DNA of 27,889 bases from a virus: IMG/VR virus record IMGVR_UViG_3300007735_000568, positions 1 through 27,889 of that record. One strand, 5' to 3'. The first letter of the stretch is position 1; the number at the start of each line of letters is the position of its first letter. Below the pieces are notes generated by a model. That model was not told where the DNA came from. It saw nothing but the letters and a program-made list of their open reading frames with translations, and did not search any database. Positions 4,282-25,928 of this stretch are shown here, piece after piece. Position numbers and translations under genes: made by a program.

Positions 4282-4288
4282 TATTTAT
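4282..4288 (+). promoter_or_regulatory. TATTTAT box upstream of 4294 gene
   Basis: TATTTAT lies 5 nt before the ATG at 4294, within TATTTATTATAAATG. The same box precedes several tail genes at a similar distance. It may be a late promoter -10 element or a start-site element. Confidence 0.4.
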
Positions 4289-5466: not shown

Positions 5467-6972
5467 TTATATATCAGTCCACACCCATTTACCATTGCCA
5501 CAGTCCCAAATTCGATCATATCCATTCAACTGCATATTTTGCCATTCGGTTAAAGATTGATCAAAATTGGTCATAAGTTTATTTAATTTATGTTTTTGAA
5601 ATGTCATTCGATTAAATAAAATTTTATAATCTGGACTTATATACCAATAATTTGGTGTGGTATTTTCAATAAAAATAAAACCTAAATTTTGATATACTAT
5701 TCCATCAAAATATCTTTTATCGTTGTAAGACACAATGCTTTTAGGAGAATGGTTTTTAATAAAATGTTTAAACAATCGTGATGCAGCTCCTACGACAGAT
5801 GTGTTTAGTTTATTGCAATAACGATACATTTCGTATTGAATTTTTTTATCAAATCTAGACTTAACAAATGTCATTAATGAAACCAATTGATTATTGTGGT
5901 ACAAGCCATATTTTATAGAAGATTTGTCTTTTCCTTGTAAATGATTAACTTCTAAAAAATTATTTTTTTCATTTTCAGTTACTGGACGTAAATCACAATC
6001 ACGCGCGTAAATTTTACTAATATTAGTTTTTAACAGATAATGAATCACAGATTGGACAATTTCTTTTTTATAAACCCATTCATTTTCAAATATGTGTATC
6101 AAACGTATACCCTTGGATCCACAACTGCGACTTTTATTTAAATGATAGTGTTTTTTAATGCCATTGCCATTTTCACTGTGCCAGTACAAACCATTTAGTT
6201 CAATAGCTAGATTTTCAGAGGGTATATAAATATCTAATTCTTTGCCATTAAGAACTGTTCTATCTTTTCTTTTTACAATAATGTTGTCTCCTACAATAGA
6301 TTTTACAAAATGATATATTTCATTTTCAATAGTATCTTTATCCAAAGGATTACAATAATTACAAAAAATGTGATTCAATTTATAAACATCAGTTTCAAAA
6401 ACCTTATTACACTTTGCACACGAAAACTTATATTTGTTTTTATACAAATACCCCTTATACTCAGATTCAGAAAACAAAGGAATTATGTTTCTAACTTCAC
6501 AATAACTTTTGATAAAACCAAATCGTTCTAGCTTATATTTTTCTGCAATATTTTTCCTCACAGTGATATCTTTTAAAACATTATCAACACCATATTTTTC
6601 AATGCATGTAGATTTTATTTTTTCAATGTTATTATAGTTTTCATTGCCGTATTTCTTTAGTTTTGTTTTTTTAACACTGTGTTTATATAAATCTAATTTA
6701 CTATAAAATTCCACTCCGTATTTATCAAAAATCGCTTTTTTAAAATTCCGTTTCGTTTCCTCAGTTTGCATTGGATGCATTCCATTATACTTTTGAAAAT
6801 ATGTTTTCTTTTGTGAATCACGCATTTTATTCAAAACATCTACGTTTGAATTCGAACATTTTTTACTACAATATGTTGATTTGTTTCTTTTATAAAAAGA
6901 AACTTGATACTTGTTATTGCAAGTACGACAAATCTTTTCAACAAAATCCGGATTATTTTTTGGTCTACTCAT
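5467..6972 (-). CDS. EDxHD (Vsr-like) homing endonuclease with zinc fingers
   Basis: A 501-residue protein and the only convincing gene on the minus strand. Residues 15-39 form a CxxC...CxxxC finger (C15, C18, C35, C39). Residues ~60-145 hold KYG-centred repeats typical of phage homing nucleases (FDKYGVEFYSK, EKYGVDNVLKD). A second finger lies at C185, C188, C204, C207. The nuclease core follows: E218 in ENEIYHFV, D247 in ELDIYI, E258 and W264-H265 in AIELNGLYWHSE, then GIRLIHIFENEW. This is the EDxHD arrangement known from Hef- and I-Bth0305I-like enzymes. The C-terminal ~200 residues (from ARDCDLRPV to the end) match an extension often seen in these proteins. It sits alone between the 4294 gene and the tail tube gene, consistent with insertion as a free-standing selfish gene. 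No clear promoter was identified in 6973-7075 on its strand. Confidence 0.85.
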   Translation of the reverse strand: MSRPKNNPDFVEKICRTCNNKYQVSFYKRNKSTYCSKKCSNSNVDVLNKMRDSQKKTYFQKYNGMHPMQTEETKRNFKKAIFDKYGVEFYSKLDLYKHSVKKTKLKKYGNENYNNIEKIKSTCIEKYGVDNVLKDITVRKNIAEKYKLERFGFIKSYCEVRNIIPLFSESEYKGYLYKNKYKFSCAKCNKVFETDVYKLNHIFCNYCNPLDKDTIENEIYHFVKSIVGDNIIVKRKDRTVLNGKELDIYIPSENLAIELNGLYWHSENGNGIKKHYHLNKSRSCGSKGIRLIHIFENEWVYKKEIVQSVIHYLLKTNISKIYARDCDLRPVTENEKNNFLEVNHLQGKDKSSIKYGLYHNNQLVSLMTFVKSRFDKKIQYEMYRYCNKLNTSVVGAASRLFKHFIKNHSPKSIVSYNDKRYFDGIVYQNLGFIFIENTTPNYWYISPDYKILFNRMTFQKHKLNKLMTNFDQSLTEWQNMQLNGYDRIWDCGNGKWVWTDI

Positions 6973-22398: not shown

Positions 22399-22787
22399 TA
22401 CAAAAACAACTACTTTGCACATTTGCAAATAGCTTAAATTATATAGACGTATTAAAAGAAATACCAAATCAATATACTCTTATAGATAATAAGATATTTG
22501 TTTTTGCTAATGAAACTAATTTACGAGAACTATATCTTACCTTTAATGTAGAAAAGAATGACCGCAATAACCGATTCAAAGGCACTATCAGCATACATCG
22601 TAAGAAGCAAACAAATACACTATATACGCTCAACGCAATGAATAAGTTGATTGCTGACGAAAACAATGGTGTATTTGATAAGAGCTTTCAATTAAATTGG
22701 GATTTATATAAAAATAGCATCATTTTAACCAATGAAGTTGGGGTTAAAATAGTTCCATTAAAATTGTTTTCTATCTCCGAAATTTGA
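22395..22787 (+). CDS. Small conserved phage protein of unknown function
   Basis: 130 residues starting MIQKQLLCTFANSLNYIDVL. The segment HRKKQTNTLYTLNAMNKLIA followed by GVFDKSFQLNWDLYKNSIIL is a pattern I associate with small uncharacterised proteins near replication genes in T4-like phages. There are no Cys pairs, membrane segments or catalytic signatures. The start overlaps the stop of the upstream gene (ATGA), so translation is probably coupled. It is the last gene before the gp32 promoter region. Confidence 0.6.
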   Translation: MIQKQLLCTFANSLNYIDVLKEIPNQYTLIDNKIFVFANETNLRELYLTFNVEKNDRNNRFKGTISIHRKKQTNTLYTLNAMNKLIADENNGVFDKSFQLNWDLYKNSIILTNEVGVKIVPLKLFSISEI

Positions 22788-22796
22788 TATATATTT

Positions 22797-22830
22797 TTGA
22801 CTTGATTTTGGTCTGCACCTAGTGTAGACT
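22797..22830 (+). promoter_or_regulatory. Candidate promoter upstream of gp32 gene
   Basis: TTGACT (22797-22802) with TAGTGT 17 nt later, or overlapping TTGATT (22802-22807) with TAGACT (22825-22830) 17 nt later. The -10 match is imperfect and overlaps a strong inverted repeat (22811-22829), which could act as an operator. Confidence 0.4.
22811..22829 (+). promoter_or_regulatory. Inverted repeat overlapping the gp32 promoter
   Basis: GTCTGCAC, a CTA loop and GTGTAGAC pair along all 8 bases with one G-U pair. It may be an RNA hairpin in read-through transcripts or a DNA operator at the -10 element. Confidence 0.5.
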
Positions 22831-22852
22831 TAGTTTCAAGTTGGTTATACAA

Positions 22853-22912
22853 TCTGGTTTGAGTGAACCAGACGAATTAATTAACTAATTAAACATTAAA
22901 CATTAAATAATT
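22853..22912 (+). promoter_or_regulatory. Candidate gp32 translational autoregulation site
   Basis: A 7-bp perfect hairpin (TCTGGTT 22853-22859, loop TGAGTG, AACCAGA 22866-22872) is followed by 40 nt made almost only of A and T, with repeated TTAA/ATTAAAC units, ending at the ATG. T4 gene 32 mRNA has a folded nucleation site followed by an unstructured UUAAA-rich stretch to which gp32 binds. The resemblance is in layout, not sequence; no clear pseudoknot partner for the loop was found. Confidence 0.5.
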
Positions 22913-23749
22913 ATGGCATTAGATCTAAGTAAGTTGAAGAGCCGTTTGAGCTCTCTCTCAAACACAAATCAAAAATCTAACTTGATTTGGAAACCAAAGC
23001 CTGGAAAACAGGTAGTTCGTATTGTTCCGTACAAGTATGTACCTGAGAACCCATTCATCGAACTAAAGTTTCATTACAACATCAACAACAAGACATATCT
23101 ATCTCCTGATAGTTTTGGTCGTCCAGATCCAATCGTTGAATTTGCTAACCGTCTGAAGAAGACTGGATCAAAGGAAGATTGGCAGATGGGTCGTAAGATG
23201 GAACCAAAGATGCGTACTTTCGTACCAGTTATCGTTCGTGGTGAAGAAGGTGAAGGAGTTAAGTTCTGGGGTTTTGGTAAGCAAGTTTATCAAGAACTTC
23301 TATCAATCATCAGTGATCCTGACTTCGGTGATATTACTGATCTAACTAATGGTCGTGATATTGTTGTAGAATTCAAGACGGCTGAAGGTGGAGCTAGTTT
23401 CCCAGAAACCAGTATCCGAGTCAAACCAAACGTAAGTGTTGCAGTAGATCCTAAAAACGGTCAATTGCTTGACGCATTGAAGGCTCAAGTTAATATTTTG
23501 GATCTATTTGAGGAACTATCCTATAACGATCTAAAAGATGTTATGGATAAGTGGTTGAATCCAGAAGCATCTGCCACTGAGATTGCGGCTGAACCAACTA
23601 CAAGTGTGGATGATGACGAAGCTCCATTTACAGTTCCATCTACTCCAGCAGCAACAGCTCCTGCCAAACCAGTACAGTCACCAAGTACTGCTAAGGCTAA
23701 GGGTAAAGATAGTGTAGAACAAGCATTTGATGACTTGTTTAACTCCTAA
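22913..23749 (+). CDS. 32: Single-stranded DNA-binding protein, T4 gp32-like
   Basis: 278 residues. The N-terminus MALDLSKLKSRLSSLSN with basic residues suits the cooperativity domain. The core SNLIWKPKPGKQVVRIVPYK, then FIELKFHYNINNKTYLSPDS, matches the gp32 OB-fold start. The tail (~210-278) is Ala/Pro/Asp-rich and ends DSVEQAFDDLFNS, as in gp32 acidic tails that recruit replication partners. The protein has no cysteine at all, so the zinc finger of T4 gp32 (His plus three Cys) is missing. Codon use is more GC-ended than in most neighbours, which fits high expression. A leader with candidate autoregulatory structure and a strong terminator make it a single-gene unit. Confidence 0.9.
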   Translation: MALDLSKLKSRLSSLSNTNQKSNLIWKPKPGKQVVRIVPYKYVPENPFIELKFHYNINNKTYLSPDSFGRPDPIVEFANRLKKTGSKEDWQMGRKMEPKMRTFVPVIVRGEEGEGVKFWGFGKQVYQELLSIISDPDFGDITDLTNGRDIVVEFKTAEGGASFPETSIRVKPNVSVAVDPKNGQLLDALKAQVNILDLFEELSYNDLKDVMDKWLNPEASATEIAAEPTTSVDDDEAPFTVPSTPAATAPAKPVQSPSTAKAKGKDSVEQAFDDLFNS

Positions 23750-24965: not shown

Positions 24966-25017
24966 GTTTTTCCGCATTGCCTACTATTTATTAGTATGGA
25001 TAACAATGCGGAAAAAC
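24966..25017 (+). promoter_or_regulatory. Perfect 14-bp hairpin enclosing the start codon of the homing endonuclease
   Basis: GTTTTTCCGCATTG (24966-24979) and CAATGCGGAAAAAC (25004-25017) are exact reverse complements. The 24-nt loop holds the TATTTAT box (24985-24991) and the ATG (24996). Transcripts from uvsX would contain both arms; transcripts begun at the box would lack the left arm. A T run (25020-25025) follows, so partial termination is also possible. Confidence 0.75.
24985..24991 (+). promoter_or_regulatory. TATTTAT box inside hairpin loop
   Basis: TATTTAT ends 4 nt before the ATG at 24996. It is the same box as upstream of the tail genes, here lying within the hairpin loop. Confidence 0.45.
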
Positions 25018-25928
25018 TCTTTTTTGAAGACCGATCTGAACGATTATATCAAATCTTTATAAAAGATGAATCAATATGTGGATTTACTTCTTTATTTAAA
25101 CTGAATAAAATTGGTAGCAAAACTGGGGAAAAAATAAAAAAATATTTATATAATAAATATGGTGAAACTTATTTGAAAAAAATAAGTGCTGTTAGAACGT
25201 CTAAAGCTGCTCATCAAAAAAGAAACAAAGATAGTTATTTTATTTCTTCAGAAAGAAGACAAAAAATGTCGATTGGTATTAAAAAATATTACAAAAATAA
25301 TCAGTCCGCTAAGTCTAGATGTAGGGATTTAATGATTAAACACTGTTTACCAAAGTGTCAAACAATGGAGAGTAAAATAAAACGAGTAAAGAGTAGAGAC
25401 TGGTATAAACCCAGTAAAGATACTAAACAAAAAATGTCTCAATCTCAACTTGGAAAGTCATTAACAGAAGAACATAAGTTAAAATTAAGAAAACCAAAGA
25501 AAACCAAGCGATCTAATTTTAGACATACTACTGAAACAAAACACAAATTATCGTTAATTACTAAAAATCAGTGGAAAAGTGGAATTCATAAACCAATTTT
25601 TAAATCTAAAGGACAGCAGGAAGTAATTAGATTGTTAAAAGAACAAGGATATTCAATTCAAGATGAATATGTTGTTGGGGGGAAGCCATACGATGTGTTT
25701 GTAAAAGAAAAAAATTTATTAATAGAATTTAATGGTACTTATTGGCACAGAGATCCTAGATTTTTTACATCGTCCGATGAAGTTATTAAAATATGGGAAA
25801 AAGATAAAAATAAAATGTTGATTGCTGAATCGAATGGGTATATAATAAAAGTTATATGGCAACACGATTGGGAACAATGTAAAGACAAAAATATATACAT
25901 TAAAAAATTATTAAATGAGCAACTTTGA
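24996..25928 (+). CDS. EDxHD (Vsr-like) homing endonuclease with NUMOD3-type DNA-binding segments
   Basis: 310 residues. The N-terminal ~135 residues are basic with helical segments. NUMOD3-like repeats follow: SKDTKQKMSQSQLGKSLTEE (~140-159) and HTTETKHKLS (~177-186). The C-terminal nuclease has SKGQQEVIRLLKEQGYSI (E209), KPYDVFV (D233), LLIEFNGTYWHRD (E244, H251) and YIIKVIWQHDWE, the Vsr-like EDxHD core. It is separate from the minus-strand endonuclease but in the same nuclease class. It sits between uvsX and the 5' exonuclease, overlapping the latter's first ORF by 14 nt. Its start codon lies in a hairpin loop, suggesting it is silent on early transcripts. It is AT-richer than uvsX, in line with being a newcomer. 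Confidence 0.85.
   Translation: MDNNAEKLFFEDRSERLYQIFIKDESICGFTSLFKLNKIGSKTGEKIKKYLYNKYGETYLKKISAVRTSKAAHQKRNKDSYFISSERRQKMSIGIKKYYKNNQSAKSRCRDLMIKHCLPKCQTMESKIKRVKSRDWYKPSKDTKQKMSQSQLGKSLTEEHKLKLRKPKKTKRSNFRHTTETKHKLSLITKNQWKSGIHKPIFKSKGQQEVIRLLKEQGYSIQDEYVVGGKPYDVFVKEKNLLIEFNGTYWHRDPRFFTSSDEVIKIWEKDKNKMLIAESNGYIIKVIWQHDWEQCKDKNIYIKKLLNEQL

Follow-up and report, generated by a model that had tools for sequence, protein, structure and literature searches.

The leader of the gp32 gene in the DNA analysed here (the window, a virus record of 27,889 bases) is, with a probability of roughly two in three, an operator of the T4 gp32 type for autogenous control of translation, but one with a nested two-helix fold in place of the pseudoknot. 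Comparison among relatives establishes the inner hairpin of this fold (P2), a UUAAA tract and the tie of both to gp32; binding and repression by gp32 at this leader would be expected by analogy with T4 and RB69. The features, in window coordinates, are:

22802-22807, plus strand: -35-like hexamer TTGATT (TTGACA in many relatives), part of the conserved TTGAHN-N17-TANNNT pattern
22811-22829, no strand assigned: inverted repeat over the -10, arms 22811-22818 GTCTGCAC and 22822-22829 GTGTAGAC, with 7 Watson-Crick pairs and one G-T
22825-22830, plus strand: -10-like hexamer TAGACT, part of the same conserved pattern
22839-22847, plus strand: P1 5' strand AGUUGGUUA, from its predicted pairing with 22878-22886 and the strand-swapping test
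22853-22872, plus strand: P2 hairpin, stem 22853-22860 with 22865-22872 and tetraloop GAGU at 22861-22864, from covariation and RNAalifold
22878-22886, plus strand: P1 3' strand UAAUUAACU, from the predicted fold and strand swapping (alternative register 22840-22847 with 22882-22889)
22887-22912, plus strand: predicted open A/U tract with UUAAAC, UUAAAC and UUAAA (unpaired probability at least 0.85 through 22887-22914)
22913-23749, plus strand: gp32-type single-stranded-DNA-binding protein, 278 aa (Pfam PF08804 (gp32), 5e-13, 50 bits against a cut-off of 26.8; phrog_1192, 1.3e-16)

The two profile matches agree with the earlier assignment of the 22913-23749 reading frame as gp32, and a UvsX-like recombinase gene comes after it. 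In the mechanism we favour, a message started from the promoter at 22802-22830 would begin near 22838. Its first ~50 nt would form the nested element, made up of P1 as the outer helix around an internal loop and, inside it, P2 with its RNGU tetraloop, and its last ~26 nt before the AUG are predicted to stay open, with UUAAA-type units. By inference from T4 and RB69, gp32 in excess of the available single-stranded DNA would load at P1/P2, then spread cooperatively across the UUAAA tract and the start codon, and so block ribosomes. As no Shine-Dalgarno sequence is seen, the open tract covered by gp32 would also be where ribosomes enter.

Leaders of relatives were collected by scanning viral contigs six times with gp32 proteins, and P2 was tallied in loci with a leader of at least 110 nt. 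Among the matches listed, with some contigs counted more than once, P2 was found in 76/78, 76/78, 25/70 (new loci), 70/71 (new loci) and 74/77 leaders in five of the scans, and in 0/74 leaders in the scan with a marine gp32 query, although the gp32s are homologous. Counted by distinct 110-nt leader, again among the matches listed, P2 is present in 104 of 178. In the scan that gave 25/70, the absences begin at locus L185, where identity to the query is ~61% or lower.

P2 had been noticed as a 7-bp hairpin, and its arms (22853-22859 and 22866-22872) are indeed complementary at all seven positions; as RNA, U22860-G22865 makes an eighth pair. Folding the leader and looking for covariation among relatives, as the earlier note had suggested, gave strong support for this hairpin. 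In an alignment of 35 of the 38 distinct hairpins (L212, L192 and L067, which has a shifted register, were omitted), 94.6% of cells were paired, 89 cells showed double changes compared to 25.2 ± 5.0 after shuffling, and there were 29 further pair types compared to 21.7 ± 1.8. The covariation score was 0.914, against 0.297 ± 0.029 for shuffled and no more than 0.206 for slid controls. Hairpins entered the search only if they had 5 or more pairs and a loop ending in GU, a condition that biases the result towards RNGU and towards pairing in the innermost five positions of the stem; the three outermost pairs, unconstrained by the search, likewise covary. RNAalifold, given 43 of 49 leader segments aligned by sequence alone (omitting the near-duplicates L076, L084, L164, L169, L175 and L179), returned P2 as its sole helix, with double changes at all six pairs. 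The mean pair probability of P2 was above 0.5 in 85 of 89 leaders. Exceptions to the standard form are L005 (5 pairs), L054 (interrupted stem), L105 (UCGU loop, by eye) and the L443-type leaders (GAAU loop).

The loop is much more constant than the stem. Across 89 distinct leaders it reads GAGU in 60, AAGU in 13, GUGU in 10, GGGU in 3, GCGU in 2 and GAAU in 1, in a tally for which such a loop was required by the search, though the loci were chosen by protein alone. That the loop stays constant while the stem drifts suggests that it is read by some factor or has to take a fixed shape. P2 was also considered as a general phage hairpin and rejected as such. Defined by an RNGU loop placed 38-100 nt upstream of the start and at least 6 pairs, P2-like hairpins occur in 0/196 leaders of other genes and in 16/3560 shuffled leaders, and the three other matches in the window lie within or opposite coding sequence.

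The A/U tract is similarly typical of gp32. The TTAAAC/TTAAA units reported to run up to the ATG are where they were described (TTAAAC at 22889-22894 and 22896-22901, TTAAA at 22903-22907, ATG at 22913). Counted over the final 45 nt before the start, UUAA[AC] occurs 4 times in the window leader and between 0 and 2 times before the 17 other plus-strand window reading frames that reach 100 aa. Likewise, 29 distinct gp32 leaders have a mean of 3.9, and 175 leaders of other genes a mean of 0.17 with a maximum of 2. Among the 111 distinct P2 leaders, 11 have five units, 59 have four, 19 have three, 9 have two and 13 have one. The 22 leaders with only 1 or 2 units speak against the operator reading; a few of the low counts are due to loci at which the match begins two residues too late, and few exact units are found in the subgroups L176, L188 and L410. 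The earlier proposal of a folded element followed by a UUAAA-rich tract, on the same principle as in T4 but with a different fold, holds up in these comparisons: P2 covaries, and both P2 and the tract mark gp32 leaders, in contrast to the leaders of the other genes that were compared.

From the inferred start of the message, the predicted fold has P1 (22839-22847 with 22878-22886) enclosing P2. This replaces the two separate hairpins first proposed as the folded element, and it divides the claim that the stretch after the second hairpin is unstructured: the sequence from 22887 onwards is predicted to be open, whereas 22878-22886 is predicted to pair. Overall, 22837-22915 folds at -16.5 kcal/mol compared to -8.54 ± 2.55 kcal/mol for shuffled sequences (z -3.12; 2/200 as good). 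P1 was not returned by RNAalifold from the mixed 43-leader alignment. In one register, 88.8% of P1 cells are paired, mostly through one-sided changes, and 1/8 pairs changed on both sides. As the register of P1 differs between lineages, P1 was tested by strand swapping. Using 33 of 36 leader clusters (L192, L212 and L186 were omitted), the mean pairing energy was 7.86 kcal/mol for own partners and 6.84 ± 0.26 kcal/mol for swapped ones (fraction 0.0002), and for 15 divergent leaders the values were 7.74 and 6.02 ± 0.50 kcal/mol (fraction 0.00055). The signal was weaker by longest helix (fractions 0.003 and 0.006, respectively), and the window's own strands paired better than shuffled ones with a fraction of 0.03. 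By duplex energy, pairing with the leader's own partner is worse than pairing with partners from the main clade in two cases, L063 and L072, and by longest helix 7 of the 15 divergent leaders do no better with their own (these two, L080, L086, L093, L176 and L188). Joint changes can be seen by eye in L005, where AUUGAUAGUU faces AAUUAUCAAU, and in L178, where GUAAUAAGUUA faces UAACUCAUUAC with one mismatch. The folding predictions give at least 4 expected P1 pairs in 87 of 89 leaders, a figure without a shuffled control. Thus, P1 is likely to be a real helix, moderately supported and less secure than P2.

A P1-like stem without P2 is also found upstream of a different gene in two relatives (G005 and G006), so such a stem is not strictly confined to gp32. 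At these loci (L489 and L503, G005:C1:35407-35485; L496, G006), a small basic reading frame of 69-84 aa (MYTRTNARNKTNFVGHN...) is preceded by a promoter, then CAAGTTGGT/TAAGTTAGT, then a hairpin of the form GUURGU-GAUGA(A)-ACUAAC. The G005 promoter and 5' box match a covariance model of the gp32 leader at an E of 0.10, the hairpin there is GUUGGU-GAUGA-ACUAAC, and the G006 leader is alike. We count these stems, together with the absence of P2 from the 74 marine-scan leaders, against the operator reading. The stems suit another explanation, in which P1/P2 is a 5'-terminal stem-loop that shields an abundant message from decay, the A/U tract is an open ribosome entry site that needs no Shine-Dalgarno sequence, and gp32 reads neither; the predicted position of the element, very close to the 5' terminus of the message, would fit this too. 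Stability alone, however, needs neither a conserved RNGU loop on a drifting stem nor UUAAA units restricted to gp32, and P2 was absent from all 196 other-gene leaders. We regard message protection as unlikely, though it is the strongest of the competing explanations.

The small, conserved P2 tetraloop resembles a hairpin read by a protein, and the protein might be one other than gp32. A phage or host factor, such as a RegA-, RegB- or polymerase-like regulator, could read the loop, with gp32 merely the controlled gene; the operator of T4 gp43, as described in PMC3014915, is itself a hairpin whose loop is conserved. Further sites would be expected of a general regulator, whereas the leader covariance model, run on 20 phage records, gave exactly one match at E <0.001 in each of 13 and no second one. 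By coordinates, all 13 are gp32 leaders. Most of the 20 records hold a leader used in building the model, so the informative part of this result is the lack of a second copy. In the window, the sole match at E values up to 10 is 22825-22901 (71.8 bits). Weak second matches elsewhere have E of at least 0.09; six places were inspected, among which that in G011 is its own gp32 leader and that in G005 is the promoter and box before another gene. These searches scored 150 of 213 first-look candidates in G002 and 150 of 366 in G013. As the UUAAA tract also suits spreading by gp32, we consider a different reader improbable, somewhat more so than simple message protection.

The start of the message was placed from the promoter. 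The pattern TTGAHN-N17-TANNNT, 70-105 nt upstream of the start codon, occurs in 92 of 111 distinct P2-bearing leaders and in 4 of 77 leaders without P2, compared to 1/201 leaders of other genes and 24/2220 shuffled leaders. The case for a promoter at 22802-22830 rests on this conservation, because a consensus promoter scan of the window omits the pair (8/12 consensus letters, below the scan threshold) and its 44 sites are not clearly more than the 35.5 ± 6.7 found after shuffling. That scan does contain TAGACT-17-TACAAT at 22825-22853, from which the message would start inside P2; this candidate, which was rejected, recurs in 12 of 188 distinct leaders. With the spacing that normally separates a -10 from the start site, the gp32 message would begin at ~22836-22839.

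The 8-bp inverted repeat described at 22811-22829 is in place, and it overlaps the -10-like hexamer. As it lies upstream of the inferred start, it is probably outside the gp32 message and a feature of promoter DNA, and not the first hairpin of the leader RNA as had been supposed. It may act as an operator in the DNA, or it may form a hairpin in messages made by read-through. Across 40 distinct promoters, 5.83 of 8 positions are paired compared to 5.10 ± 0.13 with the arms permuted, and 4.45 compared to 3.56 ± 0.13 for Watson-Crick pairs alone, although kinship among sequences can by itself exceed such permutations; at least 6 pairs are present in 25 of the 40. This joint change of the arms would suit control at the promoter, with the repeat as the operator of a DNA-binding repressor and the RNA fold secondary, but 15 of the 40 promoters keep the same hexamers and spacing with no more than 5 pairs, and P2 and the UUAAA tract would be left unexplained, making this the least credible of the alternatives.

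We now compare the proposed autogenous operator with the known systems. In the gene 32 operators of T4, T2 and RB69, as in the window, a gp32-type gene is preceded by a folded element and then by a less structured UUAAA/UAAA stretch that leads to the start codon (described in PMC535899 and PMC3014915). In T4 and RB69 the order is folded element, UUAAA units, AUG, and the window leader matches it in order and spacing; the T4 model has the pseudoknot as the nucleation site from which gp32 spreads over the UUAAA repeats and the ribosome site (both according to the account in PMC535899). By our count, the T4 gene 32 leader has 3 UUAA[AC] units in its last 45 nt and ten other T4 genes in the stretches examined have 0 to 2. 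Measured against this type of operator, the window leader (22837-22912) belongs to a gp32-type gene, has in silico a folded element 5' of the ribosome entry site, as judged by P2 covariation and the folding energy, and carries 4 UUAAA/UAAA-type repeats between that element and the AUG.

It differs from T4 in two respects. First, T4 has an RNA pseudoknot, whereas the window leader has P1 nested around P2 with its RNGU loop. In a search for pairing of the P2 loop with downstream sequence, a pseudoknot of this type was not supported, since the loop complement averages 3.25 nt compared to 3.82 nt after shuffling (104 leaders; 3 nt in the window). Second, the T4 leader has a Shine-Dalgarno sequence and reads aaaaaggaaataaaaATG, and none was seen by eye in 22887-22912. 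Because a P2-loop pseudoknot and a Shine-Dalgarno sequence were both sought and neither was found, we do not class the leader as a T4-type pseudoknot operator. A gp32 leader without a pseudoknot has a precedent in RB49, whose gene 32 leader, as characterised in PMC535899, lacks one and keeps UUAA/UUAAA units; unlike the window leader, it has a strict UUAA[AC] count of 0 in the last 45 nt.

A marine sister group (L199-L230 and L316-L395) provides a further comparison. Its gp32s are homologous (those of L200 and L204 are 56-57% identical to the window protein), and its leaders also have a hairpin ~45-75 nt upstream of the start, followed by a UUAA-rich tract. The stems include GAGUG/CACUC, GAGUC/GACUC and GAUUCC/GGAAUC, among others, and some loci are without such a stem. 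In contrast to the window leader, these are long-loop stems, capable of forming a pseudoknot as in T4, and none of the 74 leaders among the matches listed has P2. From 112 loci we obtained 32 distinct stem-loop combinations, taking the GC-richer stem as fixed. In the 26 with a loop of at least 8 nt, downstream pairing averages 7.4 bases compared to 5.1 for shuffled loops (median p 0.096; 10/26 at p ≤0.05), L226 and L350 being exceptions; the 6 combinations with a 7-nt loop gave no downstream-pairing signal. Pseudoknots in the sister group are thus a lead from sequence comparison and not proof. On the same basis, the fold seems to change between clades while the A/U tract stays.

These comparisons raise the prospect, to which we give about even odds, of a new family of phage cis-regulatory RNA, in which gp32 would load at a nested P1/P2 element that stands at the 5' terminus and has an almost invariant RNGU tetraloop. 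P1/P2 and pseudoknot-type folds would replace each other among related gp32 genes with the UUAAA spreading tract kept, making the fold exchangeable and the tract the conserved core of autoregulation. Rfam gave no match in the window at gathering score, and at E values up to 5 only two weak matches, far below their cut-offs, in 22700-23000; a description of the P1/P2 element was not recognised in the open-licence literature, judged by titles and the beginnings of abstracts. The 104 distinct P2 leaders, with a different, covarying fold and a UUAAA tract, form with the pseudoknot-capable sister group a natural set that bears on which part of the operator confers specificity.

Several other features of the window were observed. 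The gp32 protein (22913-23749) contains no cysteine, so its core presumably holds together without the zinc site described for T4 gp32, a zinc metalloprotein (PMC3014915). A further hairpin is predicted at 22941-22963, just within the gp32 coding region. Two reading frames, 5467-6972 (minus strand) and 24996-25928 (plus strand), resemble homing-type endonucleases, judged from translation alone. The motif TATTTAT occurs at 4282, 7047, 9630, 12709, 20215/20227 and 24985. It lies no more than 45 nt upstream of 6 of the 16 listed gene starts (random positions give a mean of 0.39, and 0/2000 draws reach 6), and is possibly a late-promoter element of this phage. It is not found upstream of gp32 in the window; a similar element, TATTTATATA, lies upstream of many marine gp32 leaders. 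At L200, L203, L205, L214 and similar marine loci, this element is flanked, by eye, by an inverted repeat CGGTGT...ACACCG (or CGGTGG...).
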